64,000 nt of DNA. Source: Acidithiobacillus sp. AMEEHan. GTDB lineage: Bacteria > Pseudomonadota > Gammaproteobacteria > Acidithiobacillales > Acidithiobacillaceae. The first letter of the stretch is position 1. The number at the start of each line of letters is the position of its first letter. Where the stretch lies: NCBI RefSeq assembly GCF_030996345.1, contig NZ_CP118747.1:1114001-1178000 (forward strand), given 5' to 3'. The notes under the pieces were generated by a model, which worked only from the letters and a program-made list of their open reading frames with translations, had not been told where the DNA came from and did not search any database. A program made the translations under genes and the position numbers. This document shows, in pieces, positions 50 to 16,703 of this stretch.

Positions 50-868
50 ATGAGTGACCCCATTCTTCCTTCCTCCACGAGTTACCTGATCACCCAGGAG
101 CCCTACTACCAAGCCCAGGGCAACGAGGTGGAACTCTTTGCCGCTGCGTACCGCAAGCGCCTCCCCGTCATGGTCAAAGGGCCGACGGGCTGCGGCAAAT
201 CGCGCTTCATCGAGTACATGGCCTGGAAGCTGGGTAAATCTCTCATTACCGTGGCCTGCAACGAGGACATGACCGCCAGTGACCTAGTTGGCCGTTACCT
301 GCTCGAGGCCAATGGTACCCGCTGGATCGATGGACCGTTGACGACTGCCGCCCGGATGGGCGCCATTTGCTACCTCGATGAAGTGGTCGAGGCGCGGCAG
401 GACACCACCGTCGTCATTCACCCCCTTACCGATCATCGGCGTGTCTTGCCCCTGGACAAAAAGGGCGAACTCGTGCACGCACATTCCGATTTTCAGTTGG
501 TCATTTCCTACAATCCCGGCTATCAAAGCCTGATGAAAGACCTCAAGCCTTCCACCAAGCAACGTTTTGCCGCTTTTGATTTTGACTATCCGGACGCCGA
601 ATTGGAGGCCAAGATCCTCGAGCGTGAGGGCGGAATTGCAGCCGATATTGCCGAACGACTGGTCAAGATCGGTAGTGTTGCCCGGCGTCTCAAAGGGCAT
701 GGACTCGACGAAGGCATCTCCACTCGACTGTTGGTCTATGCCGCTTCCCTGATCGAAGACGGTGTTGCTCCGCAAGATGCCTGCCGCATGGCCCTGGCCG
801 CACCGATCACCGACGATGCCGATATCCGTGCCACCCTCGAGCATGCCATCGTCGCTACTTTCGCCTGA
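50..868 (+). CDS. cbbQ: CbbQ, MoxR-type AAA+ ATPase (RubisCO activase subunit)
   Basis: MoxR-family AAA+ ATPase of the CbbQ/NorQ/NirQ type, 272 residues, the normal size. The Walker A motif GPTGCGKS lies near residues 44-51 and the Walker B-like AICYLDEV near 105-112. Known CbbQ proteins form a hexamer that works with CbbO to remodel inhibited RubisCO and restore its activity. NorQ and NirQ do the same sort of job for NO/nitrite reductases, but the very large VWA partner just downstream favours CbbQO. The gene starts 49 bases into the window. Two upstream frames stop across its ATG, so a preceding gene (perhaps RubisCO) may end here, but too little is visible to name it. Family call is strong; the RubisCO assignment is inference from the neighbour. 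Confidence 0.88.
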   Translation: MSDPILPSSTSYLITQEPYYQAQGNEVELFAAAYRKRLPVMVKGPTGCGKSRFIEYMAWKLGKSLITVACNEDMTASDLVGRYLLEANGTRWIDGPLTTAARMGAICYLDEVVEARQDTTVVIHPLTDHRRVLPLDKKGELVHAHSDFQLVISYNPGYQSLMKDLKPSTKQRFAAFDFDYPDAELEAKILEREGGIAADIAERLVKIGSVARRLKGHGLDEGISTRLLVYAASLIEDGVAPQDACRMALAAPITDDADIRATLEHAIVATFA

Positions 869-881
869 TGGGGTCCAGCGC

Positions 882-3143
882 GTGTCAGCCGGGATAGACG
901 ACTCGCTGTCGCAGGCGGACGCCTGGGCGCAATTGGATACCCGTTTTGCGGAAGTGGAACGGGTTTTCCCCGATGTATGGAAAGCTGCAACGGCCGAGCT
1001 CAGCCCTCAGGGCCAGGTGGACTACCTGGAAGCGGCGCGGCGGATCGGAAAACTCGGTCGTGGCGTGGAACCCTTGCTGGCCTTCCTGGAGGAGTGGCCG
1101 GCCGTGGCGGGGGCAGCGGGAGAAAAGGCCCTGCCGGCGCTGATGCAGTTCATCGATCGCCTGCAGAAATCTCCCAATGGCCGGGCGATCACTCCCTTGT
1201 TACAAAGCCTGGCCGCGGTGGCGGCACGCCTGGGATCGGCGGCGCAGCTGCAAACATATCTGGACATCGCCCTGCGCCTGATGGAGCAGAGCACAGGCTC
1301 CATTCATGGCCGCGAGGCCACTATTCCCAGCACGGGACTGCCGGAATTCTTCGTTCAGGCTCCGGCACTGCTTCAGCAGCTCAGCCTGGAAGGGCTCGCC
1401 AACTGGGTCGAGTACGGTATTCGCAACCACGCCAGCCATCCCGAACGCCAGAAGGACTACTTCGGCCTACAGTCCGCCGACAGTCGCGCCGTCTTGCAGC
1501 GCGAACGGCACGGTACCCTCCTGGCCGATTGCGAACGCAGCCTAGACGCTTACCTGCGCGGCTTGTGGGCGGAAACTGCCATCCTCATCCCTTACTCCAG
1601 CGCCTTTCATCAGCTACGCCAGCCCATTCCCTACTTCGATTCCCTGGGCTATCGCCTACCCGACGCCTACGATGCCGCCCGCGGGGTATCCGGCTTGGAT
1701 CGTTACCGCATCGCCCTTGCCCATATGCTCGGACATCGGCGCTGGAGCAGCCCCCTGATCGCCGACAACTGGAGCCCTTTCCAGCGCCTGGCGGTGGAAA
1801 TCCTGGAAGATTGCCGGATCGATACCCTGCTCATCCGCGAGTACCCAGGGCTGCGCCGTTTTTTCCTCAGTTTGCACCCCCAGCCGGGCGAAGGCGACTG
1901 CGATCCGCAAACGACTTCCTGCCTGCTTCACCGTCTGGCCATGCTCTCCCGTGCCCTCCTCAATCCGGGGCATGGCTACCGGCATCCGGTAATCTTGGAG
2001 ATTGCCGGGCGCTTTCATGGGCTGCTGCAAAGCGGAACGAGCAGCACCAGCGAGATGGCGGCCCTGGGCCTGGACTTCGTCACTCGCACCCGCCAGGCCA
2101 GCGACCAGTTTGCCAAGGTCCATTTTGCCGATACCGTGGTCGATTACCGCGACGACAACCGCCATCTCTGGACATTCATCGAGCCCGACGACGAGGAGGA
2201 AAGCAGCGCGGCGGAAGCACGGCCCCAGCGCCTGGAGGAATCTTCGTCCCTGCCGCCCCGTCTGTATCCGGAATGGGACGCCCAGACCCAGAGTTACCGA
2301 CCCGATTGGGTGAGCGTCTACGACCAGCTGCAAAGCAACGGCGAGCCGGCAAAGATCGATCGTCTGCTTGCCAAGCACAGTGCCCTGGGCAAACGCCTGC
2401 AGCGCCTCTTCGACCTGCTCAAGCCGCAGAACAAGGAACGCATCCGGTACCAGGAAGAGGGCAGCGAACTCGACCTGGACATTGCCCTGCGCGCCCTCGT
2501 CGACTACAAAAGTGGTGCCAGCCCCGACCCGCGCATCCATCTGCGCCATCGTCACCGTGACCGCGATCTCTCCGTCTTGCTCTTGCTCGACCTCTCGGAA
2601 TCTCTGCAGGACACGGTACCGGGTACCGGCCAGACGATCCTGGAATTGAGCCAGGAGGCGGTCTCCCTACTCGCCTGGGCCATCGACGCCCTGGGGGACC
2701 CCTTCGCCATTGCTGGATTTCATTCCAATACCCGTCATGAAGTCCGCTATGCCCACATCAAGGGCTTTCGTGAGCCGTGGGGGGAACCGGTCAAGGCGCG
2801 GCTGGCAGGGTTGGAAGCAGGCTGGTCGACGCGCATGGGGGCTGCCCTGCGTCACGCCGCCCATTACCTGGGGGCACGCAATACAGGGAAGAAACTCTTG
2901 CTCGTTCTCACCGATGGCATGCCGTCGGATGTGGACGTAGCTGATCCACAGCAACTCGTTGCCGATTCCCGGCAGGCGGTACGGGAACTCGAGCAGCAGG
3001 GAATTTTCCCGTACTGCATCAGCCTCGATGCCCAGGCGGACAGCTATGTGGGAGAAATCTTCGCTCGGCAATACACGGTTATCGATCAGATCGAGCGCCT
3101 GCCCGAACGCCTGCCGCAACTGTTCCTCGCCCTCACGAAATGA
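882..3143 (+). CDS. cbbO: CbbO, VWA-domain RubisCO activase adaptor
   Basis: Protein of about 750 residues with a C-terminal von Willebrand A domain. The MIDAS motif DLSES lies about 570 residues in, followed by the strand LVLTDGMPSD. The long N-terminal helical part is typical of CbbO and longer than in NorD. In characterised systems CbbO binds RubisCO through the VWA MIDAS and links it to the CbbQ ring. The start is uncertain: GTG at 882 has a GGGGT about ten bases upstream and leaves a 13-base gap after cbbQ. ATG at 843 would overlap cbbQ and has no obvious ribosome site. The frame stays open still further upstream, but that part is antisense-like low-quality sequence within cbbQ. Confidence 0.85.
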   Translation: MSAGIDDSLSQADAWAQLDTRFAEVERVFPDVWKAATAELSPQGQVDYLEAARRIGKLGRGVEPLLAFLEEWPAVAGAAGEKALPALMQFIDRLQKSPNGRAITPLLQSLAAVAARLGSAAQLQTYLDIALRLMEQSTGSIHGREATIPSTGLPEFFVQAPALLQQLSLEGLANWVEYGIRNHASHPERQKDYFGLQSADSRAVLQRERHGTLLADCERSLDAYLRGLWAETAILIPYSSAFHQLRQPIPYFDSLGYRLPDAYDAARGVSGLDRYRIALAHMLGHRRWSSPLIADNWSPFQRLAVEILEDCRIDTLLIREYPGLRRFFLSLHPQPGEGDCDPQTTSCLLHRLAMLSRALLNPGHGYRHPVILEIAGRFHGLLQSGTSSTSEMAALGLDFVTRTRQASDQFAKVHFADTVVDYRDDNRHLWTFIEPDDEEESSAAEARPQRLEESSSLPPRLYPEWDAQTQSYRPDWVSVYDQLQSNGEPAKIDRLLAKHSALGKRLQRLFDLLKPQNKERIRYQEEGSELDLDIALRALVDYKSGASPDPRIHLRHRHRDRDLSVLLLLDLSESLQDTVPGTGQTILELSQEAVSLLAWAIDALGDPFAIAGFHSNTRHEVRYAHIKGFREPWGEPVKARLAGLEAGWSTRMGAALRHAAHYLGARNTGKKLLLVLTDGMPSDVDVADPQQLVADSRQAVRELEQQGIFPYCISLDAQADSYVGEIFARQYTVIDQIERLPERLPQLFLALTK

Positions 3144-3158
3144 ACAGTATATTGCGCA

Positions 3159-3178
3159 GTACGTTCACTATTACGTAC
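3159..3178. promoter_or_regulatory. Candidate operator: GTACGT-N8-ACGTAC palindrome upstream of the XRE-cupin gene
   Basis: The 45-base gap between cbbO and the regulator holds a perfect inverted repeat, GTACGT, eight bases, ACGTAC. It overlaps a 12-base-period direct repeat (ACGTTCACT then ACGTACACT). It ends 10 bases before the regulator ATG. Symmetric sites of this size just upstream of an XRE-family gene are usually autoregulatory operators. Binding is inferred, not shown. Confidence 0.5.
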
Positions 3179-3188
3179 ACTTGCGCCC

Positions 3189-3734
3189 ATGGAACAGCTC
3201 GCCCGTCAATTGCAAAAGATCCGCGAGGATCGCCAGTTATCCTTGCGCTCCCTGGCCGAGCGGGCGGGGGTTTCTGCCAGCGCCATTTCCCAGATCGAAG
3301 CGGGCCAGGTCTCGCCCTCCATCGCCACCTTGGAAAAGCTCTGTCATGCCTTGGGAGTCCATATCGCCGACCTCTTCGACGAGGGGACCGATAGCCCTGC
3401 CCCCATCATCGTCCGTGCTGAACAGCGTCGGCGGGTGTACAGCGCCGGTTCCCACGCCAGCATCGAGCCTCTGGCAAAAAACTTCTCCCGCAAAAAGATG
3501 CAGCCCATTCTTCTGACCCTGGAGCCTGGGGGAGAGATTGGCGAGCACCCCTACAGCAGCGCCGAGGGGGAAGAATTTGCCATGCTCATCGAGGGCTGCG
3601 CCTGCTTTGAGCAGCAAGAGACGCGGCATGATCTGGTCAAGGGGGATGCGGTCTACTATGACCCGCGGCAGCTCCACAATTGGCGCAATACCGGCAAGGA
3701 TCCTGCGGTGTTGCTGATCGTCGTGGCCCAATGA
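3189..3734 (+). CDS. XRE-family regulator with C-terminal cupin sensor domain
   Basis: 181 residues. An N-terminal helix-turn-helix (residues about 8-62, with SLRSLAERAGVSASAISQIE) is followed by a DLFDE linker and a C-terminal cupin_2 barrel (about 105-180, with GEEFAMLIEG and the pair of conserved Gly/His/Asn positions). This is the SutR/PuuR-like architecture, in which a small ligand on the cupin changes DNA binding. Its stop overlaps the hyfB start (ATGA), so it is translated together with the hydrogenase-like operon and is the obvious candidate regulator of it. The palindrome 10 bases upstream suggests autoregulation. The ligand cannot be predicted from sequence. Confidence 0.9.
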   Translation: MEQLARQLQKIREDRQLSLRSLAERAGVSASAISQIEAGQVSPSIATLEKLCHALGVHIADLFDEGTDSPAPIIVRAEQRRRVYSAGSHASIEPLAKNFSRKKMQPILLTLEPGGEIGEHPYSSAEGEEFAMLIEGCACFEQQETRHDLVKGDAVYYDPRQLHNWRNTGKDPAVLLIVVAQ

Positions 3735-5716
3735 ACGGCGTCAACCTTCTGCACCTCGCCTTGCTAGCGGCGGCCCTCGGACCGCTGCTCAGCCTCGCCG
3801 CGCTTTTGCCCCTGGCCCCGGCCGAGGTGCGCCGTGCCGCGTTGCTGGGAAGCACCGCCATGGGCCTGCTCTGGCTGATCGATGGCATATTGGCTCTGCT
3901 CGCGCCAGCCGCTTCGCCGACTCTGAGCCTGGGAACGGTCATCGTCTGGCAATTCCGGCTCGACCCCTTGTCGGCATTTTTTCTCATCGTGCTCGGGGTA
4001 GTGGGGAGCAGCGCATCCCTCCACGCCTTGGGGTATTTTCACAACGCAAGTACGGGGCAGCTACGACGGGTTCTGCTGCCACTGCCATTGTTTCTCTCGA
4101 GCATGGCGCTGGTGCTGCTGGCGGACAACGCCTATACCTTCCTGGTGGCCTGGGAAGGCATGGCCCTGAGCTCCAGCTTCCTGATCCTGGCCCAGGCGCA
4201 AGGGGCGCGAGAACGCCAGGCAGCCTACCTGTACCTGCTCCTTGCCCATCTCGGCGCCCTTTGCCTGCTCGCCGCCTTTGCCCTCTTGAGTCACGGTAGC
4301 CCGCTGCAAGGCAGCACGTTCTCTACGATGAGTGGGCATTTTCTCTCCCCGTGGCAGCGGCAGGCCATTCTCGTGCTGACCCTGCTCGGCTTTGGCGCGA
4401 AGCTCGGGGCAGCGCCCCTGCACGTCTGGCTCCCCGAGGCCCATCCGGCGGCCCCGGCTCCGATCTCTGCCTTGATGAGTGCGGCAATGCTGCCCATCGC
4501 CCTCTATGGCCTCTTGCGCATGGATTGGCAAATCTTGCCGCCAGTCGGTACTTCCTGGGGCCTGATTTGGTTGCTGGTCGGTTTGATCAGCGCAGGTTTC
4601 GGCGTGCTGTTTTCTGCTCTGCAACGCGACCTGAAACGCATGCTCGCCTATTCCTCCATGGAAAACATGGGCCTGATTTTGGTGGCCTTCGGGCTTGCAC
4701 GCATCTTTGCCGCTGAGGGTTCCCCAACGCTCGCGGCGCTGGCCTTGAGCGCCGGCCTATTCCAGATCGTCAACCACGCCTTCTTCAAGGGCCTGCTCTT
4801 TCTCGGCAGCGGTAGCGTGCTCCACAGCGCCGGCACGGTGGACATGGGTCGCCTGGGTGGACTGATCCGCGGCATGCCCCAAACGACCTTGCTCATGCTC
4901 ATTGGCAGTCTCGCCATCGCCGGACTCCCGCCCCTCAATGGTTTTGCCTCGGAGTGGCTGCTTCTGCAGGCCTTTCTCCTCGCGCCACAGTCGGCATCCG
5001 GCACTCTACAAGCCATTCTGCCCCTCGCCGCCGCTGGCGTGATCTTCGTCCTCGCCTTGGCCAGCTTCGCCATCGTCAAAGCCTTTGGCCTGAGCTTTCT
5101 CGGGCAGGCGCGTACGGCTTTTTCGGCCCACGAGGCGAGTCGTTGGGAACGGAGCGCCATGGGCCTCCTGGCACTCGGGTGTGTGCTCTTGGGCCTCTTT
5201 CCGGGGACGATCGTCGATCATCTGCAGGGGGTCAATCTGTTGCTCCTGCACAGCAAGGTCCTGGGTAGCCAGGCGCCGTGGGGGCTGACACCCATTTCCC
5301 CGCAGCGGGCAAGCTACCTGCCTGGGGCCTTTCTGATCGGCATCGTGCTCGCCATCGTCCTGACCTTCCTCTTGGTGTGGTGGCGCTTTGGTCGGCCGTT
5401 GCGCCGCGTCCCCGTCTGGGCCTGTGGTTTCCAGGGTCCGCGCAGCGCCCGCATGCAGGATAGCCCCGCAGGCTTCAGCCAACCGCTGTACCGGATCTTC
5501 CGCCCCATTCACCAAGGGCAAGTCCCGGTCGGCAAGGTCGAGGAGGGTTGGCAGTTACGGCTCAGCGACCCCTTCTGGGCCGGTATCTATGCGCGCATAC
5601 AGCATGGGGCGGATTTTCTCTCCCGGCAGGCCCTGCGACTGCAGCACGGTAAGATCAGCTCCTACCTCCTGTATGCGTTTCTCACCTTGATCGTGCTTCT
5701 GGTACTAGTCCAATGA
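3731..5716 (+). CDS. hyfB: HyfB/NuoL-like proton-translocating membrane subunit
   Basis: About 661 residues, almost wholly hydrophobic with many membrane helices, of the antiporter-like family shared by NuoL, HycC and HyfB. The helix containing GFGAKLGAAPLHVWLP keeps the buried lysine and histidine of the proton channel. An additional Lys/His helix (FQIVNHAFFKGLLFLGSG) is also intact. The C-terminal extension (after about residue 540) includes a soluble segment starting WACGFQGP, as seen in HyfB/HycC proteins. ATG at 3731 overlaps the regulator stop (ATGA) and is preferred over an earlier in-frame ATG inside the regulator gene. It would form part of the ion-pumping arm of the Ehr-type complex. 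Confidence 0.88.
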   Translation: MNGVNLLHLALLAAALGPLLSLAALLPLAPAEVRRAALLGSTAMGLLWLIDGILALLAPAASPTLSLGTVIVWQFRLDPLSAFFLIVLGVVGSSASLHALGYFHNASTGQLRRVLLPLPLFLSSMALVLLADNAYTFLVAWEGMALSSSFLILAQAQGARERQAAYLYLLLAHLGALCLLAAFALLSHGSPLQGSTFSTMSGHFLSPWQRQAILVLTLLGFGAKLGAAPLHVWLPEAHPAAPAPISALMSAAMLPIALYGLLRMDWQILPPVGTSWGLIWLLVGLISAGFGVLFSALQRDLKRMLAYSSMENMGLILVAFGLARIFAAEGSPTLAALALSAGLFQIVNHAFFKGLLFLGSGSVLHSAGTVDMGRLGGLIRGMPQTTLLMLIGSLAIAGLPPLNGFASEWLLLQAFLLAPQSASGTLQAILPLAAAGVIFVLALASFAIVKAFGLSFLGQARTAFSAHEASRWERSAMGLLALGCVLLGLFPGTIVDHLQGVNLLLLHSKVLGSQAPWGLTPISPQRASYLPGAFLIGIVLAIVLTFLLVWWRFGRPLRRVPVWACGFQGPRSARMQDSPAGFSQPLYRIFRPIHQGQVPVGKVEEGWQLRLSDPFWAGIYARIQHGADFLSRQALRLQHGKISSYLLYAFLTLIVLLVLVQ

Positions 5717-6660
5717 GCTGGGCAGCCTGGGGAATGCAGTCTTTGCAGGTCTTGCTGGCGCTGGCCATCGCGCCCCTTTTCGCCGCCTGGTTACAGATGC
5801 TCCGTGCCCTGCTGCAAAACCGCCGCCCTGCAGGTCTGGGGCAGGGTTACCGTGACCTGCGCCGTCTTTTTGCCAAGGAATCTCTTCTTCCGGAAGATTC
5901 TTCTTGGCTCTTTCGTTTCAGCCCCTACGTCCTCTTTGGCACCAAAGTGATGGCCACGACCTTGGTGCCCATTTTGGCCGTGAATCTTCCTTTGGCGCGG
6001 GCCGCCGACGTCATTGCCCTGGTCGGATTGCTCGCCGTAGCGCGTATTTTTCAGGTCCTGGCGGCCATGGATACGGGGACGCCTTTTGCGGATCTCGGAG
6101 CCCACCGGGAGATGCTGGTCTCCGCGCTGGCGGAACCTGCGCTCCTTACGGCATTTTTCATTGCCTCTCTCCTGGCTGGCTCCAGCTCCCTGAGCACTAT
6201 CGTTGCGCACACGCAGGTGGAGATCACTTCGCTGCATCCGAGTATGGTCTTTGCCGCTGCCGCCTTCTTTTTGGTCCTCCTGATCGAAAACGCCCGCATT
6301 CCCGTCGATAATCCTGCCACCCACCTGGAGCTCACCATGATCCACGAGGCGATGTTGCTGGAGTACTCGGGACGTCATCTGGCCCTGCTGGAGTGGGGCG
6401 CACAATTGAAGCTTTTACTGTATGTGGCGATGGGTATCGCCCTGTTTTTTCCTTGGGGAATCGCCGATCACGTGGGACTGGTGGCAGTGATGCTGGCGTT
6501 GGCGGCATTCTTCGGCAAACTGTTCCTTGCCGCGCCCATCCTCGCCCTGGTGGAAACCCTGCTCGCCAAGAAGCGGCTTTTCCGCGTGCCGGAATTTGCC
6601 GCTAGTGCCTTCCTTTTTGGGGTGATCGGCTTGCTTACCCACTTCATGCTCGGGGCCTGA
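5713..6660 (+). CDS. hyfC: HyfC/NuoH-like membrane anchor subunit
   Basis: 315 residues with about eight membrane helices, homologous to HycD/HyfC and NuoH. The conserved acidic loop is present as LIENARIPVDNPATHLELT, with HEAMLLEYSG following. This is the region that joins the membrane arm to the peripheral arm in complex I and group 4 hydrogenases. It starts by ATGA overlap with hyfB. In the family this subunit is the link through which redox events in the soluble part drive ion movement. Here the soluble part is unusual (see HyfG), so its actual driver is unknown. Confidence 0.9.
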   Translation: MSWAAWGMQSLQVLLALAIAPLFAAWLQMLRALLQNRRPAGLGQGYRDLRRLFAKESLLPEDSSWLFRFSPYVLFGTKVMATTLVPILAVNLPLARAADVIALVGLLAVARIFQVLAAMDTGTPFADLGAHREMLVSALAEPALLTAFFIASLLAGSSSLSTIVAHTQVEITSLHPSMVFAAAAFFLVLLIENARIPVDNPATHLELTMIHEAMLLEYSGRHLALLEWGAQLKLLLYVAMGIALFFPWGIADHVGLVAVMLALAAFFGKLFLAAPILALVETLLAKKRLFRVPEFAASAFLFGVIGLLTHFMLGA

Positions 6661-6662
6661 AC

Positions 6663-7334
6663 ATGCACCTACCCACGGAGTCACTCCCCGCCATCCTGAA
6701 ATTCCTCGCTGCTTGGATGCTGCTGCTGAGTTTTGCCCTCCTAGCCCAACGCCGTCTGCTCAGCCTGATCTATCTCCTCGCCTGGCAGGGCGTCACCCTT
6801 GCGCTGAGCACGGCGTTGGTGGCCCTGCTCACCGGCGACCGTCTGCTCTGGGTATCGGCATCCTTGACCTTGCTCCTCAAGGGGCTACTGATCCCGACCC
6901 TGCTGCATCGCCTGTTACGGCGCCTCAATGTCCGCGGTGATGTGGAGATGACCCTCAATGTAGCGGGCGGCCAACTCATTGGCATCGTCCTGGTCATCTT
7001 TGCCTTTGCCCTGGCGGCGCCTCTGGCCGGTGCGCTCCCGGCTGCTACCCATGGCATGCTCGGTATTGCCCTGGCCGCCTTTCTCCTCGCCTTTTGGATG
7101 ATGATCAGCCGACGCAAGGCGATTTCAGAAGTGGTGGGCTTTCTGGCGATGGACAACGCCCTGTTTTTTGCCGCCACCAGCGCCACCCTGGGGATGCCGT
7201 TGATCGTCGAGCTCGGGATCGCCCTCGACGCCCTCATCGGCTTTGTCATCCTCGGCGTCTTTTTCTTCCATATTCGCGAAAATTTCGAGAGCCTGGATCT
7301 GCACTGGCTGGAACACCTGCGGGAGGATCGATGA
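6663..7334 (+). CDS. hyfE: HyfE-like membrane subunit (NuoK-related)
   Basis: 223-residue integral membrane protein with about seven helices, matching HyfE of hydrogenase 4. HyfE contains a NuoK-like core. It begins two bases after the hyfC stop and its own stop overlaps the hyfF start. HyfE is typical of the Hyf branch and is lacking from the simpler Hyc (hydrogenase 3) complex, so this points to a hydrogenase-4-like, longer membrane arm. Assigned by overall character and position between hyfC and hyfF. Confidence 0.82.
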   Translation: MHLPTESLPAILKFLAAWMLLLSFALLAQRRLLSLIYLLAWQGVTLALSTALVALLTGDRLLWVSASLTLLLKGLLIPTLLHRLLRRLNVRGDVEMTLNVAGGQLIGIVLVIFAFALAAPLAGALPAATHGMLGIALAAFLLAFWMMISRRKAISEVVGFLAMDNALFFAATSATLGMPLIVELGIALDALIGFVILGVFFFHIRENFESLDLHWLEHLREDR

Positions 7335-8779
7335 CGCTGCTTTGGATTCTTGTCGCAGCCGCCGCCGGAATCCCGCTGCTGGCCCTGCTGGGGGATGGGC
7401 GACGGGGCCGAATCCTCTTTGTCGGCATCAACCTCGTAGTCTTTATGCTCAGCCTGCTCCTCGCCAAGGAGTTCCTCGCTCACGGCACCTTGCGGGCCCT
7501 GGATGACAGCTTCCGCATGGATGCCCTTTCCCTGATTTTGGTCCTGGTCAATGGCTTGGTGGGCCTCATGACGGCATGGTTTTCTAGCGCATATTGGCAG
7601 CGGGAGATCAGCGAGCACGGTTTCGGGAAGGGACGGCAGCGCTTGTATCACGCCATGTTCCAGAGCTTTCTTGCCACCATGCTCCTGGCATTGCTGAGCA
7701 ACAACTTGGGCATTCTGTGGGTTGCCTTGGAGGGCGCCACCCTCTCGACGGTATTGCTGGTGAGCATGCAGCGCAGTGCGGAGAGTCTGGAAGCCGCGTG
7801 GAAATACTTCATCCTCTGCGGTGTCGGCTTGGCCATGGCCCTCTTCGGCACGGTGCTGCTCTATTTCGCCGCCCAGCCGGTGCTCGGCAGTGGTGCCCGG
7901 GCGCTGCTCTGGTCGGCTCTCGATGGACATGCCAAGGCTCTGAATGGAACGGCCCTCGCCCTGGCCTTCGTCTTCGTCCTCGTCGGTTATGGCACCAAGG
8001 TAGGGCTGGCGCCCCTCAATAGCTGGCTGCCGGATGCCCACGCCGCCGGTCCGAGCACGGTATCGGCGGTCCTTTCCGGGCTGCTGCTCAATGTCGCCCT
8101 CTATGCCATTCTGCGCTTCAAGAGCCTGGCCGACGCCGCCTTGGGTTCGGCCTTCGCTTCTCACTTATTGCTGGCCTTCGGCCTCCTTTCCTTGCTGCTG
8201 GCCGCCCTGTCCATGCTGCGCCAGCACGATGTGAAACGCCTCTTCGCTTATTCATCAGTGGAACACATGGGCCTGATCAGCATTGCCTTCGGCCTGGGCG
8301 GCCCATTGGCAATCTTTGCCGGGGTCTTGCACATGGTCGGCCACAGCCTGGCCAAGTCCTCAGTATTCTTTTCCGTAGGACGCGCCATACAGGAGGGCCA
8401 TTCCCGGGAGTTGGCGGATCTTCGCGGCATCCTGCAGACTCGTCCTACCTTGGGTTGGTCGTTGCTGCTTTCGATATTCGCTATTCTCGGCATGCCTCCA
8501 GGCTCCCTCTTTTTGAGCGAATTTCTCATCGTGGTGGCGAGTGTGCAGCAGATGTGGATGATCACCCCAATCCTTCTGCTTGGCCTCGGGGTCGCCTTTG
8601 CCGCTATCCTGCCGCGACTCCTGTCGATGCTCTACGGCGAGGCAACGCCAGTGCCAGCGCAGCGGACGCGGGGTCTCGTTCCCGTCTTTGTGCAGATCCT
8701 GGTCGTCGTCCTCCTGGGTATCTGGATTCCGGGCTCCCTAAACGCCTGGATGCATAGCGTTGCGGGGATCCTGCAATGA
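7331..8779 (+). CDS. hyfF: HyfF/NuoN-like proton-translocating membrane subunit
   Basis: About 482 residues and a second antiporter-like (NuoL/M/N family) subunit. The channel helix GYGTKVGLAPLNSWLPDAHA keeps its lysine. Another conserved segment, DVKRLFAYSSVEHMGLI, and the LSEFLIV helix are intact. ATG at 7331 overlaps the hyfE stop, and the open frame upstream of it lies inside hyfE and is not used. With HyfB it gives the complex two ion-translocating modules. HyfD, the third antiporter-like subunit of E. coli hydrogenase 4, is not present in this operon. Confidence 0.88.
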   Translation: MTLLWILVAAAAGIPLLALLGDGRRGRILFVGINLVVFMLSLLLAKEFLAHGTLRALDDSFRMDALSLILVLVNGLVGLMTAWFSSAYWQREISEHGFGKGRQRLYHAMFQSFLATMLLALLSNNLGILWVALEGATLSTVLLVSMQRSAESLEAAWKYFILCGVGLAMALFGTVLLYFAAQPVLGSGARALLWSALDGHAKALNGTALALAFVFVLVGYGTKVGLAPLNSWLPDAHAAGPSTVSAVLSGLLLNVALYAILRFKSLADAALGSAFASHLLLAFGLLSLLLAALSMLRQHDVKRLFAYSSVEHMGLISIAFGLGGPLAIFAGVLHMVGHSLAKSSVFFSVGRAIQEGHSRELADLRGILQTRPTLGWSLLLSIFAILGMPPGSLFLSEFLIVVASVQQMWMITPILLLGLGVAFAAILPRLLSMLYGEATPVPAQRTRGLVPVFVQILVVVLLGIWIPGSLNAWMHSVAGILQ

Positions 8780-10341
8780 AGAAGCAAGAGACAAGGCTGG
8801 TGCAGGGATTCGGCCCCTTTCGCGCCGTGAGCAGCGCCGTGAGCAGCGCTGTGCCCCTCTGGCGGGCGGCGCTGTCGCCGCAGGATTGGCAGGGTCTAGC
8901 GGCGACATTGCGGCAAAGAGGCGGACGCTTGTTGGGGCTCTGGGCTGAGGCCATGACGGAGCGGCAATTGCGGATCCATGCCTTGTACCTGAGCGGTGCG
9001 GCCTGCCTCTGGTGCAGTCTCGACTGGGATGGCGACGGCGCCGGGTATCCAACTTTATCGCAGATCTTCCCTACCGCCTCGCGCCAGGAACGGGCCATTG
9101 CCGATTTGCTCGGCGTGCGTGCTGAGGGTAACAAAGATCTTCGGCCCTGGCTGCGCCATGCGGCCTGGCCAGAATCGTTTTTCCCCTTGCGCATCGGGCA
9201 GCTCCCTGTAGAGGAATTGGGTGTCCAGGGAGATTCCAGCTATGCCTTCCAGCAGCTTCCAAGTGATGATCTCCACGAAATTCCTGTGGGTCCGGTCCAT
9301 GCCGGGACCATCGAACCTGGGCATTTTCGTTTCACTTGTCTGGGGGAGCAAGTCCTGCAGCTGGAAGAGCGCCTTGGCTACACCCACAAGGGAACGGAAT
9401 GGCTTTTTCGCGGCAAGGACCCTCTTGCGGGCACGCCCCTCGCCGGACGGGTCAGCGGCGACAGCACGGTGGCCTATGCCTGGGCCTATGTCATGGCGGT
9501 GGAGAATATCGCGGAATTCCAGCCACCGGCGCGGGCCTTGGCCCTGCGCGGCCTGTTTGCGGAACGGGAGCGTCTGGCCAATCATCTTGGCGATCTGGGT
9601 GCTCTCGGCAACGACGCCGGCTTCGCCTTCGCCCTCACCCAGTTGCTCGCCATCAAAGAGGAATTGCTGCGCGAGAATGACGAGGTCTTTGGCCATCGTT
9701 ACCTCATGGATCTCATCCAACCGGGAGGAATTGCCAGAGATTTGTCCCCCGCGGCCGGTTTGCGCTTGCGGCAAAGTGCGGGCCGTTGGCAGGCGCGATT
9801 GCAAGATCTGGAGCTGCTGCTGCACGAACACGCCGGCCTGCGCGATCGCCTGGTGGGGACTGGATCCATCTCCCCCGAGCGCGCCTACCATTGGGGTATG
9901 GGAGGCATGGCTGGGCGTGCCAGTGGGCAGGCTTGGGACTTGCGGGTACAGTTTACCCCAGCGCCCTACGGCAAGTTTCCCGTCGATATTGCTCTGGCCA
10001 CGACCGGTGACGTTGCCGCCCGTTGGGCCGTGCGCTTCCAGGAGATCTACGCGAGCCTGCGCTGGCAGGATACCCTTCTCAATGCTCTCCCCGAGGGTTC
10101 CTGCCAAGCTCCGCTGCGAGTCCCTGAGGATGGAGAGGGTCTGGGCATTGTCGAGGGCTGGCGCGGCGAGGTCTTCGTGGCCTTGCGCCTAGAGTCCGGG
10201 CGCATTGCCCGCTGCCACCCCCACGATCCGTCCTGGTCCCTCTGGCCGGTGTTGGAGGAAGCCGTGTTGCAGGACATCGTCGCCGACTTCCCGCTCATTA
10301 ACAAATCTTTCAACCTGAGTTACAGCGGCCATGATCTTTGA
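8776..10341 (+). CDS. hyfG: HyfG/HycE-like large subunit lacking the [NiFe] ligands (Ehr type)
   Basis: 521 residues: an N-terminal NuoC/HycE-like domain (about 1-170) fused to a NuoD/[NiFe]-large-subunit domain. True hydrogenases carry RxCGxC and DPCxxC. Here the first motif reads RVSGDS (residues 225-230) and the last DPSWSL (484-489), so none of the four nickel-iron ligands remains. The C-terminus continues with FPLINKSFNLSYSGHDL and has no cleavable peptide after a DPCxxC site. This places it with the energy-converting-hydrogenase-related (Ehr) large subunits, such as the mycobacterial hycE-like protein, which cannot activate H2. It should be the catalytic or coupling subunit of the complex, with unknown substrate. 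ATGA overlap with hyfF. Confidence 0.88.
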   Translation: MKKQETRLVQGFGPFRAVSSAVSSAVPLWRAALSPQDWQGLAATLRQRGGRLLGLWAEAMTERQLRIHALYLSGAACLWCSLDWDGDGAGYPTLSQIFPTASRQERAIADLLGVRAEGNKDLRPWLRHAAWPESFFPLRIGQLPVEELGVQGDSSYAFQQLPSDDLHEIPVGPVHAGTIEPGHFRFTCLGEQVLQLEERLGYTHKGTEWLFRGKDPLAGTPLAGRVSGDSTVAYAWAYVMAVENIAEFQPPARALALRGLFAERERLANHLGDLGALGNDAGFAFALTQLLAIKEELLRENDEVFGHRYLMDLIQPGGIARDLSPAAGLRLRQSAGRWQARLQDLELLLHEHAGLRDRLVGTGSISPERAYHWGMGGMAGRASGQAWDLRVQFTPAPYGKFPVDIALATTGDVAARWAVRFQEIYASLRWQDTLLNALPEGSCQAPLRVPEDGEGLGIVEGWRGEVFVALRLESGRIARCHPHDPSWSLWPVLEEAVLQDIVADFPLINKSFNLSYSGHDL

Positions 10342-10363
10342 GACGGATTTCCGGAGGTAGATG

Positions 10364-10843
10364 ATGTATCGGATTTTACGCGAGGCCTGGCGCCTGGGCC
10401 GCGTGGGCGAGAAGCCAGCGCGGGCACGCGGGAAAGACGGCCTTTTCGCACGGAGCGCTGCCATCCGCCATGTGGATGCGGGCTCTTGCAACGGCTGCGA
10501 GCTGGAGATCCAGGCCCTGGGTGGCCCCCACTATGGCTTGGAACAAGCGGGCCTACGCTTTACCGCCTCGCCCCGGCACGCCGACATCCTCCTGGTGACT
10601 GGACCCGTGAGCCGGCACATGGCTGCTGCCCTACGCGACACTTACGAGGCCATGGCGACGCCCAAAAAAGTCCTTGCCTTGGGGGATTGTGCCTGCAATG
10701 GCGGGGTCTTTGCCGGCAGTTACGCGGTTTTGGATGGTGTGGAGCAGGTGCTCCCCGTAGCCGCATATTGCCCCGGCTGTCCGCCCAAACCACAGCAGAT
10801 TCTCTCCGCGTTGCAAGCGATGACTCGGGAGGATGACCGATGA
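10364..10843 (+). CDS. hyfI: HyfI/NuoB-like [4Fe-4S] small subunit
   Basis: 159 residues, homologous to NuoB and the small subunit of group 4 hydrogenases. The proximal-cluster cysteines are all present: GSCNGCE, GDCACNGG and CPGCPP. So an iron-sulfur cluster next to the altered large subunit is probably retained. A GGAGGT sequence (10353-10358) is too close to the first ATG at 10361 and well placed for the second at 10364, which I chose. It lies 22 bases after hyfG, the only real gap inside the hyf operon, and overlaps the next small gene by ATGA. Confidence 0.9.
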   Translation: MYRILREAWRLGRVGEKPARARGKDGLFARSAAIRHVDAGSCNGCELEIQALGGPHYGLEQAGLRFTASPRHADILLVTGPVSRHMAAALRDTYEAMATPKKVLALGDCACNGGVFAGSYAVLDGVEQVLPVAAYCPGCPPKPQQILSALQAMTREDDR

Positions 10844-10974
10844 CCAAGGCAGAAATCATCAAAGAACTGGCGTTGCGCAGTGGTATTCATCCCAGACTTG
10901 CGGAGCACCCATACGACAATTTGTCGGACATCCTGGCCGAAGGTCGTTGCCGGGATCATTGTGTTCCCAAATGA
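10840..10974 (+). CDS. Unrecognised 44-residue gene in the hyf-like operon
   Basis: A 44-codon frame beginning MTKAEIIKELALRSG and ending GRCRDHCVPK. Its ATG overlaps the hyfI stop, and its stop overlaps the ATG of the DUF167 gene (ATGA at both ends). This double translational coupling argues that it is a real gene. The composition is mainly helical, with two cysteines spaced C-x3-C at the C-terminus. I recognise no family. It could be a small accessory subunit or assembly factor of the Hyf-like complex, but that is inference from position only. Confidence 0.6.
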   Translation: MTKAEIIKELALRSGIHPRLAEHPYDNLSDILAEGRCRDHCVPK

Positions 10975-11285
10975 CCGAAGCGGAAAAGCCTTTCTTTTGG
11001 TGGGAGGAGGACACCCTGGTGTTGAACATCCTGGGCAAGCCTGGTGCCGCCAAAAATGCCATTGGCAAAGTCAAAGGCTCCGAATTGAAAGTGAGTGTAA
11101 CAGCAGAGCCGGAAAATGGACGAGCCACGGAGCGGATGGTGCAATTTCTCGCCAAGGAATTTGGCGTGAAACCATCGGCAATCGAAGTCGTCTTTGGCCA
11201 GTTTAGCGTCCACAAGCAACTGCGGATCAAAGCGCCTAAACACCTGCCCCCCTTATTACAACAGCAAACGGAAATAGAGCTCTAA
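10971..11285 (+). CDS. DUF167 (YggU-family) protein
   Basis: 104 residues. The core (LNILGKPGAAKNAIG, then ELKVSVTAEPENGRAT, EFGVKP and HKQLRIK) matches the DUF167/YggU fold, whose function is not established. The start is set by ATGA overlap with the 44-residue gene. An earlier in-frame ATG at 10833 would read through that gene and is rejected. In E. coli yggU lies with other housekeeping genes, so its place as the last gene of this operon may be incidental. It converges on pilY1 across a 154-base gap with no clear terminator. Confidence 0.85.
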   Translation: MTEAEKPFFWWEEDTLVLNILGKPGAAKNAIGKVKGSELKVSVTAEPENGRATERMVQFLAKEFGVKPSAIEVVFGQFSVHKQLRIKAPKHLPPLLQQQTEIEL

Positions 11286-11439: not shown

Positions 11440-14400
11440 CTAGTTGAGTACCCGCCATCCGACGACTCGCACGGTTGCACCATTTTGGTAAAACGCTGGA
11501 AACTGTCCCCCAGTTGGTGGAATGCCCGCGGATGACTGAATCAGAGTCTTGCCACCGACGCTCATGATCGTGGGTGTGTAAGCTGTGCCGTAGCCTATAA
11601 GTATGGCCCCTGTATACGCCGTACCGCTTGAAGTGACAAACACACCCGATGGGAACGCACCATTATTCAGCTTATAAAGATAATAGTAGGCCGAAGAATT
11701 ACCGCAGGTTCCGGCGGGAGGACTGACAGTAACGGGTACAATGATAGCTCCATTGTTGATCGCTACTGGCGCAGAGATGACGCCGTTCGACGGTAATGAA
11801 GTTACGGTAGAATTCGTGCCATTTTGTGCAAACACCGTAGAGCCACCGGAGTACGCCGCCCATTGGGCGATCCAGTTGCCGCCCTGAAGTTGAAAAACCG
11901 TAAAACCATTGGCACCTTGTACAGTGAGGTAGGTGTTGCCAAGGTAGGGGCTGACCGTCATGTACTGAGCAACCGAGCTCAGCCCAGATGAACTGCTCGC
12001 CCAGGGAGCGAATGACGCGGGGCTGGTGGATCCACTAGAGCCGAAGCTCGCCGGGGTGATGACCGGTGGAAAAGCGGAAGCGGAGATGGTCGCGGTACTA
12101 CTGGAGGAACCGCCGGAAACTTGTGGAATATTGGTGACCGGCATTTCATAGACATAGCCGTTCGCATCACCCAGATAAATATTGTTGCTGGAATCGATGC
12201 TCAAGGCGCTGGTAGCGTCGAACGGCAACTGATCTTGAAACGACTGTCCGGTTCCTACATTTACGCCAACGAGATAGCTTGTGGTTACCCCGCCATTCTC
12301 CTGATTCACTACCCAGAGAGCCCACGTCTGACCGAAGGTCGACGAAGATGCGTTGGTATTCTGGTAAAATACAGGGGCCTGGCTAAGAGGCTGGGAGTAA
12401 GAAGGTCCGAGATCATCTTCGAATACCACATTTGCGAGATTAGCTGTGCTCGTTCCGCCAAGCTGTAGATCGTAGAGAATGCCACCGTTCTCGGCGCTAC
12501 CGACTATATACGTATGCCATTTTCCAGTTCCATCAGTCGCGTCAATGCTCTGGAACCCTCCGTCCATGCTTTGGCCACGCCAGAAGGTTCCATAATACTG
12601 GAGTTGATTGAGCAATCCGTATGGCGTCCACGCCCAGGTCAGCGATGGATTCCCTCCTGTGGAAGCATCGTAACTTATACCATATAAAACGCCGCTATTG
12701 CTGGAAAAGACGGCAAGATTCTCGCGTGAAGAATGCTGCAAGACAAACGTCCCATAACTGCCAGTGCTTCCGCTTGCGGAGAGCAAAGTACCATTGTCGG
12801 GTGGTGTCACAATGATGGGAGCGCTGGTACTTGGCAATCCAATGTACCAATTAGCCGTTCGCCCCCCTAGGTAAGCGCCAGAATCCACAGAAGGATTAAT
12901 GGTGTAGGACGCAATCGTAGAGGCCGTCAGATCTGTCGGTAACGAAGATCCGAAGGCACTGGGATACTTGGAGGCGGCCTGAGTGAGAGGAATGGCTGCA
13001 CCGGATATGATAGCGCCGCTAGAAGAAGTCGGAGCTGTTGTGTAGAACGGCACACTGTTAGAGGAAACGGCAGTGGAGTATACCGAATTGGCATTCCAGC
13101 TAGCCTGCGATGTTGCCGTAGCTGTGACGCCGCTTGCCGAGAAAGGAAATGCATATAAATTACCCTGCCCATGGCTACTGTTCACATTTTCCGCTACTAA
13201 TTCCACTGAATTATTATTTACCGCTGCCGTTGCAGCAATTGGGGCAGTGACGACATTGTTAAGAATGTTGCCGATAATGCTGTTGAAGGCTTGCTGTACC
13301 TGGCTGGCAGAGGTAGCGGGATAAAAGGACCCCGTACCGCCAGCTTGGGCCATGGCCGTCAAAACATAATTTCCTTGCTGAGCGACAGCATTTTGCGCAT
13401 CGTTACCAGCTTGCGAAGGATTTACCGCCGAACCGATGCCTATAACGTAGGTATCGATCCCTTGCGTCTTTAGAGCCTGAATCGTCTGGATGGCATCGGT
13501 TACTGCACCGTCGTTGGTGGATGACCAATTACTCGGCGAGGAAATCGACGTTACACCAAGACTGGTAGCGGCGGCGCTACCGAGAGGCGGATATACATGA
13601 CCGTTGAGTCCTTGCGTTGGTTGACCATCAGTAACCAAAATAACATACCGTTGTCCGCAAGTTTGAGTGGGACCAGAAATTGATTGAGAATAGTTGTTAG
13701 GAAAATAGTTGTTAGGAAAATAGTTGTTAGAAAAATAGTCTGCCGCGGTTTTAATCGCCCCCGCCGTTGGTGAATAGCCTGCTGCAGCGGTGATCGGGCT
13801 CGTGTTTCCGTAATAGGTGTCAAAAACTTCCGGCACCAAGTATTGCGTTAGAGAGCTGGCATTCGTTGTGACTCCCGCTAAGATTTTGCCTTGATAATGT
13901 CTCTGACTACTATCCTGTTTGGTCACCGTACGCGCATTAAATCCAAATCCTCTCTGCGCGTACCATACCTGATTAACTGCCGAGTAAACGGAGCCATTTT
14001 GGTAAACAGGTAAATAACCCGAGCTGGTAGGGGTGATCGTAATTCCGCCCTGCCCCTGAGAGGTTGAGGAATATGTTACACTCGGAGATGACGAACCAAG
14101 TAACTGATTCTCATAGTAGTTTAGGCTGTAATTGGATGCATTGCTTCCATTGAAAGTGTAAAAGTTCGAACTGTTGTTGCTGGAGTATAAGACGTCATTT
14201 ATCAAAGGATCATCGCTTGTTTCAGATACAAGAAGTGAAGGGTAAGCGGTTGCGTTATAGCCGTTTATGTTTGTGCAAAAGCTTGAGTTGCTACCATAAC
14301 ATGGATTTGAAACAGCAATGAGTGAGTTTCCTGATGTTCCGTTGTAAGCGGCGGGTGTTTGGGAGTTGAAGGAGAAACCAGAGGTGTTCTGGCTCATGTA

Positions 14401-15000
14401 ATATGCCCATGTAGTGTAAAGCGATGGCGTTTGTGTAGCAAAATCCATCAATCCAAACTGTAATTGTTGAGAAATGCTGGGATTTTGTAATATGTTTAAT
14501 ATGGATTGCTCGGCAACATTAAGCATGGACTCAGAGTTGTCAACATATACATATGACGAATCCGAGGATACTGCGTTGGCACATGCAGACGCAGCGGGAG
14601 TTCCCGCAGTTACGTTCGCGCAGCTCACCGTATAGGGGACGCTTGTCGTAGGTGCGGTGGATGAATTGGGAGGTACAAAACCAGCGAGGGCCGTGTAATT
14701 TACTGGTGATGCTGACGTGGTATTGACGCCCTGTACACCCGAACCTGACATAATGGCTCCAGACAGGCCATTCGTTCCGGGCAGGTAGCCCGGGGTCGCC
14801 GGATTGGTGGGGCTCGCCAACACCCCCGCCATTCCTTGCGAATTATCAATTATGATCATTACCTGCGGCTGATCGCCAACTGGGATGTTATTAATTGTAA
14901 CGCCAGTTTGCTGTGGTGCAGCCCATGCACTCAAAGGTAACAGCGAGGTGGAGATTGCCAATATCAGAGAAACTGCTTTTCGGGACTTGTGGAATATCAT
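11440..15000 (-). CDS. pilY1: PilY1-like type IV pilus tip adhesin/biogenesis protein
   Basis: 1186 residues with a signal peptide (ending near AWAAPQQ). The N-terminal half contains a VWA-like region with IIIDNSQGM and DNSESM motifs. The C-terminal half is the PilC/PilY beta-propeller (segments such as LAVFSSNSGVLYGISYD and GSAENGGILYDLQLG). It is very rich in Ser, Asn, Gly and Tyr, and its DNA is visibly more AT-rich than the flanking genes. PilY1 proteins sit at the pilus tip with minor pilins and mediate adhesion and mechanosensing. It is the last gene of the fimT-pilV-pilW-pilX-pilY1 operon and overlaps pilX by 4 bases. No clear EF-hand-like calcium loop was seen. Confidence 0.88.
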   Translation of the reverse strand: MIFHKSRKAVSLILAISTSLLPLSAWAAPQQTGVTINNIPVGDQPQVMIIIDNSQGMAGVLASPTNPATPGYLPGTNGLSGAIMSGSGVQGVNTTSASPVNYTALAGFVPPNSSTAPTTSVPYTVSCANVTAGTPAASACANAVSSDSSYVYVDNSESMLNVAEQSILNILQNPSISQQLQFGLMDFATQTPSLYTTWAYYMSQNTSGFSFNSQTPAAYNGTSGNSLIAVSNPCYGSNSSFCTNINGYNATAYPSLLVSETSDDPLINDVLYSSNNSSNFYTFNGSNASNYSLNYYENQLLGSSSPSVTYSSTSQGQGGITITPTSSGYLPVYQNGSVYSAVNQVWYAQRGFGFNARTVTKQDSSQRHYQGKILAGVTTNASSLTQYLVPEVFDTYYGNTSPITAAAGYSPTAGAIKTAADYFSNNYFPNNYFPNNYSQSISGPTQTCGQRYVILVTDGQPTQGLNGHVYPPLGSAAATSLGVTSISSPSNWSSTNDGAVTDAIQTIQALKTQGIDTYVIGIGSAVNPSQAGNDAQNAVAQQGNYVLTAMAQAGGTGSFYPATSASQVQQAFNSIIGNILNNVVTAPIAATAAVNNNSVELVAENVNSSHGQGNLYAFPFSASGVTATATSQASWNANSVYSTAVSSNSVPFYTTAPTSSSGAIISGAAIPLTQAASKYPSAFGSSLPTDLTASTIASYTINPSVDSGAYLGGRTANWYIGLPSTSAPIIVTPPDNGTLLSASGSTGSYGTFVLQHSSRENLAVFSSNSGVLYGISYDASTGGNPSLTWAWTPYGLLNQLQYYGTFWRGQSMDGGFQSIDATDGTGKWHTYIVGSAENGGILYDLQLGGTSTANLANVVFEDDLGPSYSQPLSQAPVFYQNTNASSSTFGQTWALWVVNQENGGVTTSYLVGVNVGTGQSFQDQLPFDATSALSIDSSNNIYLGDANGYVYEMPVTNIPQVSGGSSSSTATISASAFPPVITPASFGSSGSTSPASFAPWASSSSGLSSVAQYMTVSPYLGNTYLTVQGANGFTVFQLQGGNWIAQWAAYSGGSTVFAQNGTNSTVTSLPSNGVISAPVAINNGAIIVPVTVSPPAGTCGNSSAYYYLYKLNNGAFPSGVFVTSSGTAYTGAILIGYGTAYTPTIMSVGGKTLIQSSAGIPPTGGQFPAFYQNGATVRVVGWRVLN
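13691..13735. repeat. Three tandem 15-bp repeats inside pilY1
   Basis: The unit TAGTTGTTAGGAAAA occurs twice exactly and a third time with one change. In the protein this encodes a repeated NNYFP pentapeptide near residues 422-436, in the linker before the VWA-like part. Being 15 bp, gain or loss of a unit keeps the frame, so it is a plausible length-variable spot. Confidence 0.9.
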
Positions 15001-16702: not shown

Positions 16703-16703
16703 C

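Follow-up and report, generated by a model that had tools for sequence, protein, structure and literature searches.

The six genes hyfBCEFGI of Acidithiobacillus sp. AMEEHan stand in one cluster with the genes of form II RubisCO and its activase, and from their sequences they are predicted to encode an Ehr-type complex, in which hydrogenase core subunits and antiporter-like pumps are joined and nickel-iron ligands are lacking. They lie near the start of a 64,000-nucleotide stretch, here called the window (contig NZ_CP118747.1, positions 1,114,001 to 1,178,000; G000:C1:1114001-1178000 in our numbering), of a 2.63-Mb genome. A preliminary description had seen an operon placed behind cbbQ-cbbO; the cluster is wider than that and also includes cbbM and cbbR. 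The form II RubisCO gene cbbM lies just outside the window and ends, stop codon included, 59 bases before its start, and the LysR gene cbbR is divergent from cbbM. The reading that we favor, with a probability of roughly 0.4, is that the complex is a redox-linked ion pump whose electron partner is encoded elsewhere and which was recruited to serve the Calvin cycle.

Earlier work on Acidithiobacillus had already described both the cluster and the fact that its product is no hydrogenase; statements on published work refer here to excerpts of the cited papers. In A. ferrooxidans, six genes of the same names (AFE2149-54, or DN052_15040-15065) were named a group 4 hydrogenase, for which a role in oxidizing formate or in exploiting the natural proton gradient was proposed (Valdes 2008, PMC2621215), and the complex was classed as a non-hydrogenase with HydDB (PMC7735108). 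In A. caldus, a core hyf set occurs with carbon fixation genes, and a second hyf copy has a gene for beta-carbonic anhydrase as its neighbor (PMC3826726). Ehr complexes, which are found repeatedly across several phyla, have been described as having no known function (PMC10284858, PMC6349859). Like the window cluster, they combine group-4-like subunits with antiporter-like pumps and lack the nickel-iron ligands, but some of their loci adjoin fdhA and nuoE/F-like genes (PMC6349859), whereas no electron-entry gene adjoins the window cluster. New here are the linkage to RubisCO loci within the family, the lack of a class-wide link, the lack of a tie to the tested formate dehydrogenases or to DAB, the SulP neighbors and the conserved remodeled pocket. 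The Acidithiobacillaceae are thereby a testable handle on Ehr function.

Subunit anatomy of the complex

The residues expected of an ion pump and of an iron-sulfur cluster are retained almost without exception, as the preliminary description had noted for the key lysines of the two antiporter-type channels and the cluster cysteines of HyfI. HyfB E142, K224, K302 and K353 are present in all 67 aligned rows, and HyfF E134, K223, K302 and K342 in all 76. The acidic residues of HyfC are kept in 68-69 of 69 rows; C43, C46 and C110 of HyfI occur in all 77 rows, and C140 occurs in 76, with one gap. Such invariance of the HyfI cysteines, the lysines and glutamates of HyfB and HyfF and the acidic chain of HyfC argues for a working redox-coupled pump. 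In Mycobacterium tuberculosis, Rv0081-Rv0087 combine the same six kinds of subunit with a regulator.

The complex is close to E. coli formate hydrogenlyase and hydrogenase-4. The best solved relative of HyfG is formate hydrogenlyase subunit 5 (HycE, 7z0s_E, E 6e-100), followed by the Mbh large subunit and complex I; that of HyfC is formate hydrogenlyase subunit 4 (7z0s), that of HyfB is also in 7z0s, and that of HyfI is MbhJ. In contrast to the E. coli complexes, the window cluster lacks the four [NiFe] cysteines and any ferredoxin-like or formate dehydrogenase subunit, and its HyfB keeps K224, which is a leucine in formate hydrogenlyase subunit 3.

These similarities raise a key question: is the complex still a hydrogenase? 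In the alignment of HyfG with 7z0s_E, RVSGDS stands for RVCGIC and NLSYSG for DPCYSC, so that all four [NiFe] cysteines are replaced. Across 82 HyfG rows, cysteine occurs at position 227 in six and at position 230 in one, and there is none among the residues shown for positions 515 and 518. Because the nickel-iron ligands are missing, the complex is not a hydrogenase, and hydrogenase identity was ruled out as a candidate; the earlier assignment to the hydrogenase-4-like, non-hydrogenase Ehr class holds. The same motifs, SGD[TS].. and NLSYSGHDL, are known from Acidithiobacillus HyfG, where unclear roles were suggested (PMC6002666), and those of the window match them.

The former [NiFe] pocket is remodeled but nearly invariant: D229, D280, H175, E180, H204, N509, K510, S511, Y516 and D520 of HyfG are identical in all 82 rows. 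Respiratory complex I, which the genome encodes itself (NuoD in L039, NuoCD in L037), shares NuoB, C/D, H and L/N-type subunits with hyf, but hyf has no NADH or NuoI module. The tyrosine of the complex I quinone motif has a role at the quinone site. Where the NuoD proteins of the genome have DRLDY and DRVDY, HyfG has GRVSG at the L1 place. Judged by its residues, the HyfG pocket, although conserved, would correspond neither to the active site of a hydrogenase nor to the usual quinone site of complex I.

Linkage to RubisCO genes in the Acidithiobacillaceae

Another important question is whether the position beside RubisCO genes is peculiar to this genome. Membership of the family was inferred from motifs and gene content; among 29 genomes so assigned, 18 carry a HyfG orthologue (55-100% identity, some in pieces) and 11 do not, three of the latter being less than 85% complete. 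Full-length CbbM was found in 14 of the 29 and partial matches in two more. In 15 of the 18 hyfG genomes, hyf is part of a RubisCO locus. Three layouts occur, with RubisCO assigned to form I or form II by mutual identity and the small subunit. Layout A, cbbM-cbbQ-cbbO-regulator-hyf, is present in seven genomes (G000, which is the window genome, G393, G390, G386, G379, G374 and G385). Layout B, hyf followed by cbbM with or without cbbQ-cbbO, is present in six (G375, G376, G371, G381, G383 and G373, the last with a hyfI piece adjoining cbbM on a separate contig). Layout C, hyf followed by form I cbbL-cbbS-cbbQ-cbbO, is present in two (G387 and G388, where the contig carries the end of hyfG). Among the remaining three, G370 carries a LysR gene resembling cbbR beside hyf and no RubisCO there, G395 has no cbb gene beside hyf and, upstream on the opposite strand, a gene for cytochrome bd oxidase, and the hyf locus of G372 is cut by a contig end. 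The regulator accompanies hyf in the family even without adjacent cbb genes (it is present in G395 and G388).

A quick HyfG tree without bootstrap covered 15 of the 18 family orthologues, those of G372, G376 and G388, which are in pieces, being left out. These 15 orthologues group with L040 in a single clade (SH-aLRT 99), in which layouts B and C (with G370) stand together (98), apart from layout A (with G395, 99); G373 was coded as having no RubisCO, and its hyfI fragment beside cbbM was found later on another contig. The simplest reading is a single origin of the hyf-RubisCO linkage, which was then retained while the gene order and the form of RubisCO changed. Retention in RubisCO loci through two gene orders and a change of RubisCO form points to a task in CO2 fixation or close to it, and not in hydrogen metabolism. 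The presence of HyfG and of CbbM is associated in the family (p=0.003, the two genomes with partial CbbM counted as present), and beta-carbonic anhydrase is commoner in the family genomes with hyfG (13/18 vs 3/11, p=0.027), both values being uncorrected for kinship. The window genome has four RubisCO large-chain matches, of which the one at C1:1833578 is 34% identical to CbbM and was taken as form I.

One locus outside the family, in the metagenome-assembled genome (MAG) KUB_Bin09 of Thiomonas sp. (L040), has hyf followed by cbbM-cbbQ-cbbO. It was rejected as an independent case because its HyfG nests inside the Acidithiobacillaceae clade, and the contig is probably misbinned or recently transferred. 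In G381 (85% complete, 5% contaminated), hyf-cbbM seemingly occurs twice, on two contigs (L156 and L168).

The cbb5 operon of A. ferrooxidans comprises cbbM (AFE_2155), cbbQ (2156), cbbO (2157) and cbbRm (2158), locus tags that directly follow those of hyf (PMC6458275). These tags suggest that hyf lies next to cbbM, as in layout B, in contrast to the window, where cbbM-cbbQ-cbbO is upstream of hyf. The word hydrogenase occurs nowhere in PMC6458275, and no publication joining hyf with cbb5 or with SulP was found in the open-licence literature, as far as the excerpts reach. We suggest that cbb5 forms a single gene cluster with what has been called the group 4 hydrogenase of A. ferrooxidans, although these sources keep the two separate.

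Neighboring genes in other lineages

For a wider view of gene neighborhoods, we used the best 80 of 574 passing relatives (the named loci), a choice that is therefore biased to close relatives. SulP transporters are the commonest co-directional neighbors in these loci, with 13 of 104 chain genes compared with 2 of 576 other genes; the Fisher test had used 12/102 vs 3/564, of which the former figures are a recount, and the Pfam tally of neighbors covered 90 chain genes. SulP lies upstream of hyfB, with 0 to 2 genes between, in 11 of the 80 loci. More than 1 kb of sequence precedes hyfB in 57 of the 80, and 10 of these have SulP, the eleventh SulP locus having less. The SulP sequences fall into three groups with 21-39% identity between groups, and SulP presence changes state four times on the tree (61 rows). 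A class-wide survey covered 369 genomes, with hyfG in 44 (E at most 1.2e-89) and RubisCO in 169 (E at most 1e-100); G302, which has only a 126-residue piece with 52% identity, was excluded from the 44. SulP was found near hyfG in one of the 43 other hyfG genomes (G177, about 2.6 kb upstream), a count in which cases may be missed, as some hyfG genes are near contig ends. None of the genes in the 80 named loci was labeled with the regulator.

In a Thiobacillus sp. MAG (L043:2633-21213), SulP, hyfBCEFGI, a CsoSCA-like carbonic anhydrase gene and a LysR gene stand in a row. The carbonic anhydrase gene lies 301 bases downstream of hyfI, and the CsoSCA-type domain of its product scores 24.9 bits (cut-off 21.5; PDB match 2fgy, E 2e-4); its CMDGR and H..C motifs, inspected by eye, presumably fit a working site. 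A Mrp-like antiporter run is located nearby on the other strand. A carboxysome operon made up of the LysR gene, a fragment resembling cbbO and a series of small open reading frames (ORFs) had been considered and was dropped, since the one member tested by Pfam is a Mrp-type antiporter subunit. At the start of the L043 contig there is a hexapeptide-repeat (gamma-carbonic-anhydrase-like) gene, a relative of which sits between SulP and hyfB in L080.

Several other neighbors recur. A spermidine-synthase-like gene is found within 10 kb of hyf in 12 named loci, including L050, L053, L064, L066, L068 and L078, and in the co-directional chain in eight loci; a malic enzyme gene lies upstream in L051, L068 and L078. 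By eye, a gene like one of these two kinds adjoins cbbR in the family genomes G379 and G385. In two Nitrospirae MAGs (L090 and L114), genes for phosphoenolpyruvate carboxylase and pyruvate/2-oxoacid:ferredoxin oxidoreductase are present within 10 kb of hyf (by Pfam in L114 only).

Electron entry and a paralogous complex

Pfam matched no HyfA, HyfH or HyfD in the window cluster, in agreement with the preliminary description. The order BCEFGI without extras is seen in 57 of the 80 named loci; in 14 of the other 23, the locus begins at most 330 bases into the available sequence, and additional or uncalled genes are present in the remainder. The ferredoxin motif CxxCxxCxxxC is absent from all 104 co-directional neighbor genes of these loci. 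Within the hyf runs it occurs in one gene, which encodes the HyfI-like subunit of a paralogous set that immediately precedes hyf in L075. Such a second hyf-type set, directly upstream, is present in L052 and L075, and its terminal HyfI-like protein has 278 and 249 residues, respectively.

The window genome itself encodes a second Ehr-like complex (L038:3356-10772, G000:C1 about 658-666 kb), far from hyf and directly following a second complex I operon. In this complex, a ferredoxin domain is fused to the HyfI-like subunit, so ferredoxin entry exists in the paralogue, and its large subunit has RVSGVGSAC at the L1 place. The paralogous sets of L052 and L075 resemble it. A link between the hyf complex and the L038 paralogue is a lead, not a result.

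Function of the complex

By sequence, the membrane arm consists of two complete ion channels, HyfB and HyfF, and a HyfC/HyfE coupling piece, and the short cytoplasmic arm of HyfG and HyfI with a single [4Fe-4S] site and the remodeled pocket. In the favored reading, electron transfer through the HyfI cluster would be coupled to ion movement, and electrons would be exchanged with a carrier or enzyme encoded elsewhere, because the operon has no electron-entry subunit of its own. In the Acidithiobacillaceae, the complex would have been recruited to RubisCO operons, a placement which suggests that it serves CO2 fixation. There, it could be driven in reverse by the large natural proton gradient, pushing electrons uphill, and this mode could supply low-potential reductant while the activase-dependent RubisCO of the same cluster runs. 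The cbbM transcript of A. ferrooxidans rises about 2-3 fold at 2-20% CO2, in data that include cbbM and not hyf, and the excerpts of the same study report no cupA or cupB (PMC6458275). At these CO2 levels, the reductant demand of the Calvin cycle would be high. Because cbbM rises at high CO2 and DAB is present, reductant supply seems more likely than carbon concentration.

Several observations weigh against a redox-linked pump in the service of the Calvin cycle. No electron donor or acceptor of the hyf complex was identified, and GRVSG in HyfG in place of the complex I DRxDY makes canonical quinone reduction doubtful. Transposase genes interrupt hyf in two of the 18 family genomes (hyfE in G386, hyfB in G371), where the complex is therefore dispensable. 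In H2-grown A. ferrooxidans, no group 4 subunit was found by proteomics, as excerpted (PMC7735108), and a formate hydrogenlyase protein of A. ferridurans, described there as a predicted Hyf partner, went up and then down during adaptation (PMC12053936). Finally, a strong RubisCO match is present in 23 of the 44 hyfG genomes of the class-wide survey and in 146 of the 325 others (p=0.42). The tie to RubisCO and CbbQO expected by the preliminary description for autotrophs generally thus stands in the family and fails beyond it: the hyf set is about as common in genomes without RubisCO, and a general RubisCO dependence was rejected.

Could the complex instead supply inorganic carbon? NuoL-type pump subunits have been recruited to this task in DAB/MpsAB and in cyanobacterial NDH-1MS, which has a CO2-hydrating CupA/CupB subunit and is induced at low CO2, and a device working like these would use redox or proton-motive force to drive one-way CO2 hydration or bicarbonate accumulation for RubisCO. 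We consider this rather unlikely, and keep it because of the SulP, carbonic anhydrase and RubisCO neighbors. Some SulP transporters carry bicarbonate (PMC6458275), and they occur in the chain upstream of hyfB; the carboxysomal carbonic anhydrase domain protein downstream of hyfI in Thiobacillus, the second A. caldus copy (PMC3826726) and the RubisCO linkage in the family point the same way. However, SulP is near hyfG in just one of the 43 other hyfG genomes, 21 of the 44 have no strong RubisCO match, and the rise of the cbbM transcript at high CO2 (PMC6458275) does not suit a concentrating role. The window cluster has neither a carbonic anhydrase domain nor DabA by Pfam, unlike DAB; DabA is encoded elsewhere in the genome, in two copies (C1:121378 and C1:1847558) far from hyf at 1.12 Mb, and in 26 of the 29 family genomes. 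Class-wide, DabA is present in 12 of 44 hyfG genomes and 71 of 325 others (p=0.44), which is neither association nor exclusion, and complementarity of hyf with DAB was rejected on these counts. The carbon role put forward in the preliminary description is thus supported by the SulP loci and one carboxysome-type carbonic anhydrase gene and opposed by the rarity of SulP class-wide, the two DabA copies and the cbbM response. In a more specific and unlikely form, the complex might be a third complex I-derived carbon device besides DAB and NDH-1MS, in which the emptied HyfG pocket would handle CO2 or bicarbonate for the activase-dependent RubisCO of acid-loving autotrophs, fed by the HyfI cluster and coupled to the two ion channels, with SulP or carbonic anhydrase partners in other lineages.

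A formate-oxidizing complex, in which a formate dehydrogenase from elsewhere docks on HyfI and the electrons are passed on while ions are pumped, is quite unlikely. Earlier studies put forward a formate role in A. ferrooxidans and A. caldus (PMC2621215, PMC3826726), PMC7735108 cites growth of the former species on formate, and the up-regulation in A. ferridurans (PMC12053936) fits formate as well. The window genome carries a formate dehydrogenase-like gene of the TIGR01701 kind at C1:1188037 and a TIGR01591-like gene, below the cut-off, at C1:1635995-1638112. Neither kind follows hyf, though. TIGR01701 is over the cut-off in 13 of 18 family genomes with hyfG and 8 of 11 without (p=1.0). Class-wide, it is present in 2 of 44 genomes with hyfG and 14 of 325 without (p=1.0, with up to two candidates scored per genome). 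TIGR01591 exceeds 400 bits, though never its cut-off, in 12 of 18 family genomes with hyfG and 7 of 11 without. G395, which is 98% complete, has the operon and neither kind, and the window cluster contains no formate dehydrogenase gene and no HyfA/HyfH-type linker subunit. With no co-occurrence with hyfG (for TIGR01591, in the family only), both were rejected as partners. The preliminary description had also suggested an unusual reductant, which the complex may still handle. It is just as improbable that the complex is a proton valve or acid-tolerance device that moves protons or cations for cytoplasmic pH, the RubisCO linkage then reflecting shared regulation. The invariant pump residues of HyfB and HyfF and the antiporter run of L043 would suit it, and acidophile or acid-tolerant groups (Rhodanobacter, Granulicella) are represented among the relatives; other relatives (Methylobacter, Gallionella, Rhodoferax) are not known to be acidophiles, and unless a redox step is involved, the invariance of the HyfI cluster and the HyfG pocket is difficult to account for. 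A nonfunctional remnant in decay would fit the transposase insertions and the 11 family genomes without hyfG, but it is highly improbable given that the residues of the pump, the cluster and the pocket are conserved almost perfectly across 67-82 rows and that the hyf-RubisCO linkage survived rearrangements.

Gene order and spacing in the window

Gene identities and order (Table 1) were established from ORFs, Pfam, NCBIfam and gene calling. Neighboring hyf genes overlap or are 2-19 bases apart, and 45 bases separate cbbO from the regulator gene.

Table 1 Features of the hyf-RubisCO cluster, in window coordinates
Feature	Position	Strand	Description	Basis
cbbQ	50..868	+	AAA+ RubisCO activase subunit	Pfam AAA_5 + CbbQ_C
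cbbO	933..3143	+	VWA-domain RubisCO activase subunit	start by gene calling; named from VWA domain and position
HTH-cupin (PuuR-like) regulator	3189..3734	+		Pfam, NCBIfam
hyfB	3731..5716	+	NuoL/MrpA-like, predicted ion-pumping subunit	NCBIfam hydrogenase 4 subunit B, 659 bits (cut-off 667)
hyfC	5713..6660	+	NuoH-like membrane anchor, conserved acidic chain	Pfam NADHdh
hyfE	6663..7334	+	small membrane subunit	NCBIfam hydrogenase 4 membrane subunit, 69.8 bits (cut-off 136); Pfam: no match
hyfF	7331..8779	+	second predicted ion-pumping subunit, NuoN/M-like	NCBIfam hydrogenase 4 subunit F, 645.6 bits (cut-off 543)
hyfG	8776..10341	+	fused NuoC-NuoD-like large subunit without [NiFe] site	Pfam Complex1_49kDa + Complex1_30kDa
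HyfG former L1 motif	9448..9468	+	RVSGDST vs RVCGICG in HycE	alignment to 7z0s_E
HyfG former L2 motif	10300..10338	+	NKSFNLSYSGHDL vs ..SLDPCYSCTD in HycE	alignment to 7z0s_E
hyfI	10361..10843	+	NuoB-like small subunit, one [4Fe-4S] site (C43, C46, C110, C140)	Pfam Oxidored_q6
DUF167 gene	10971..11285			gene calling/ORFs

Of the operon outlined in the preliminary description, the run from the regulator to HyfI after cbbQ-cbbO is upheld by gene order and tight spacing, and the membership of the DUF167 gene is not. This gene was rejected as a part of the complex, as tblastn gave no DUF167 match in 20 family stretches, and it seems not to belong to the hyf cluster. Scans for promoter-like and terminator-like signals gave no excess over shuffled sequence (2 vs a mean of 2.3 and 8 vs 10.9, respectively). 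Conserved clusters of minus-strand ORFs were discarded as antisense artefacts of GC-rich genes, and a codon-based gene caller was used in their place. Downstream of hyf, at 11440-16744, the minus strand encodes one large and two smaller proteins, which by eye resemble PilY1 and minor pilins, in a stretch of lower GC content (about 50% vs 60-63%).

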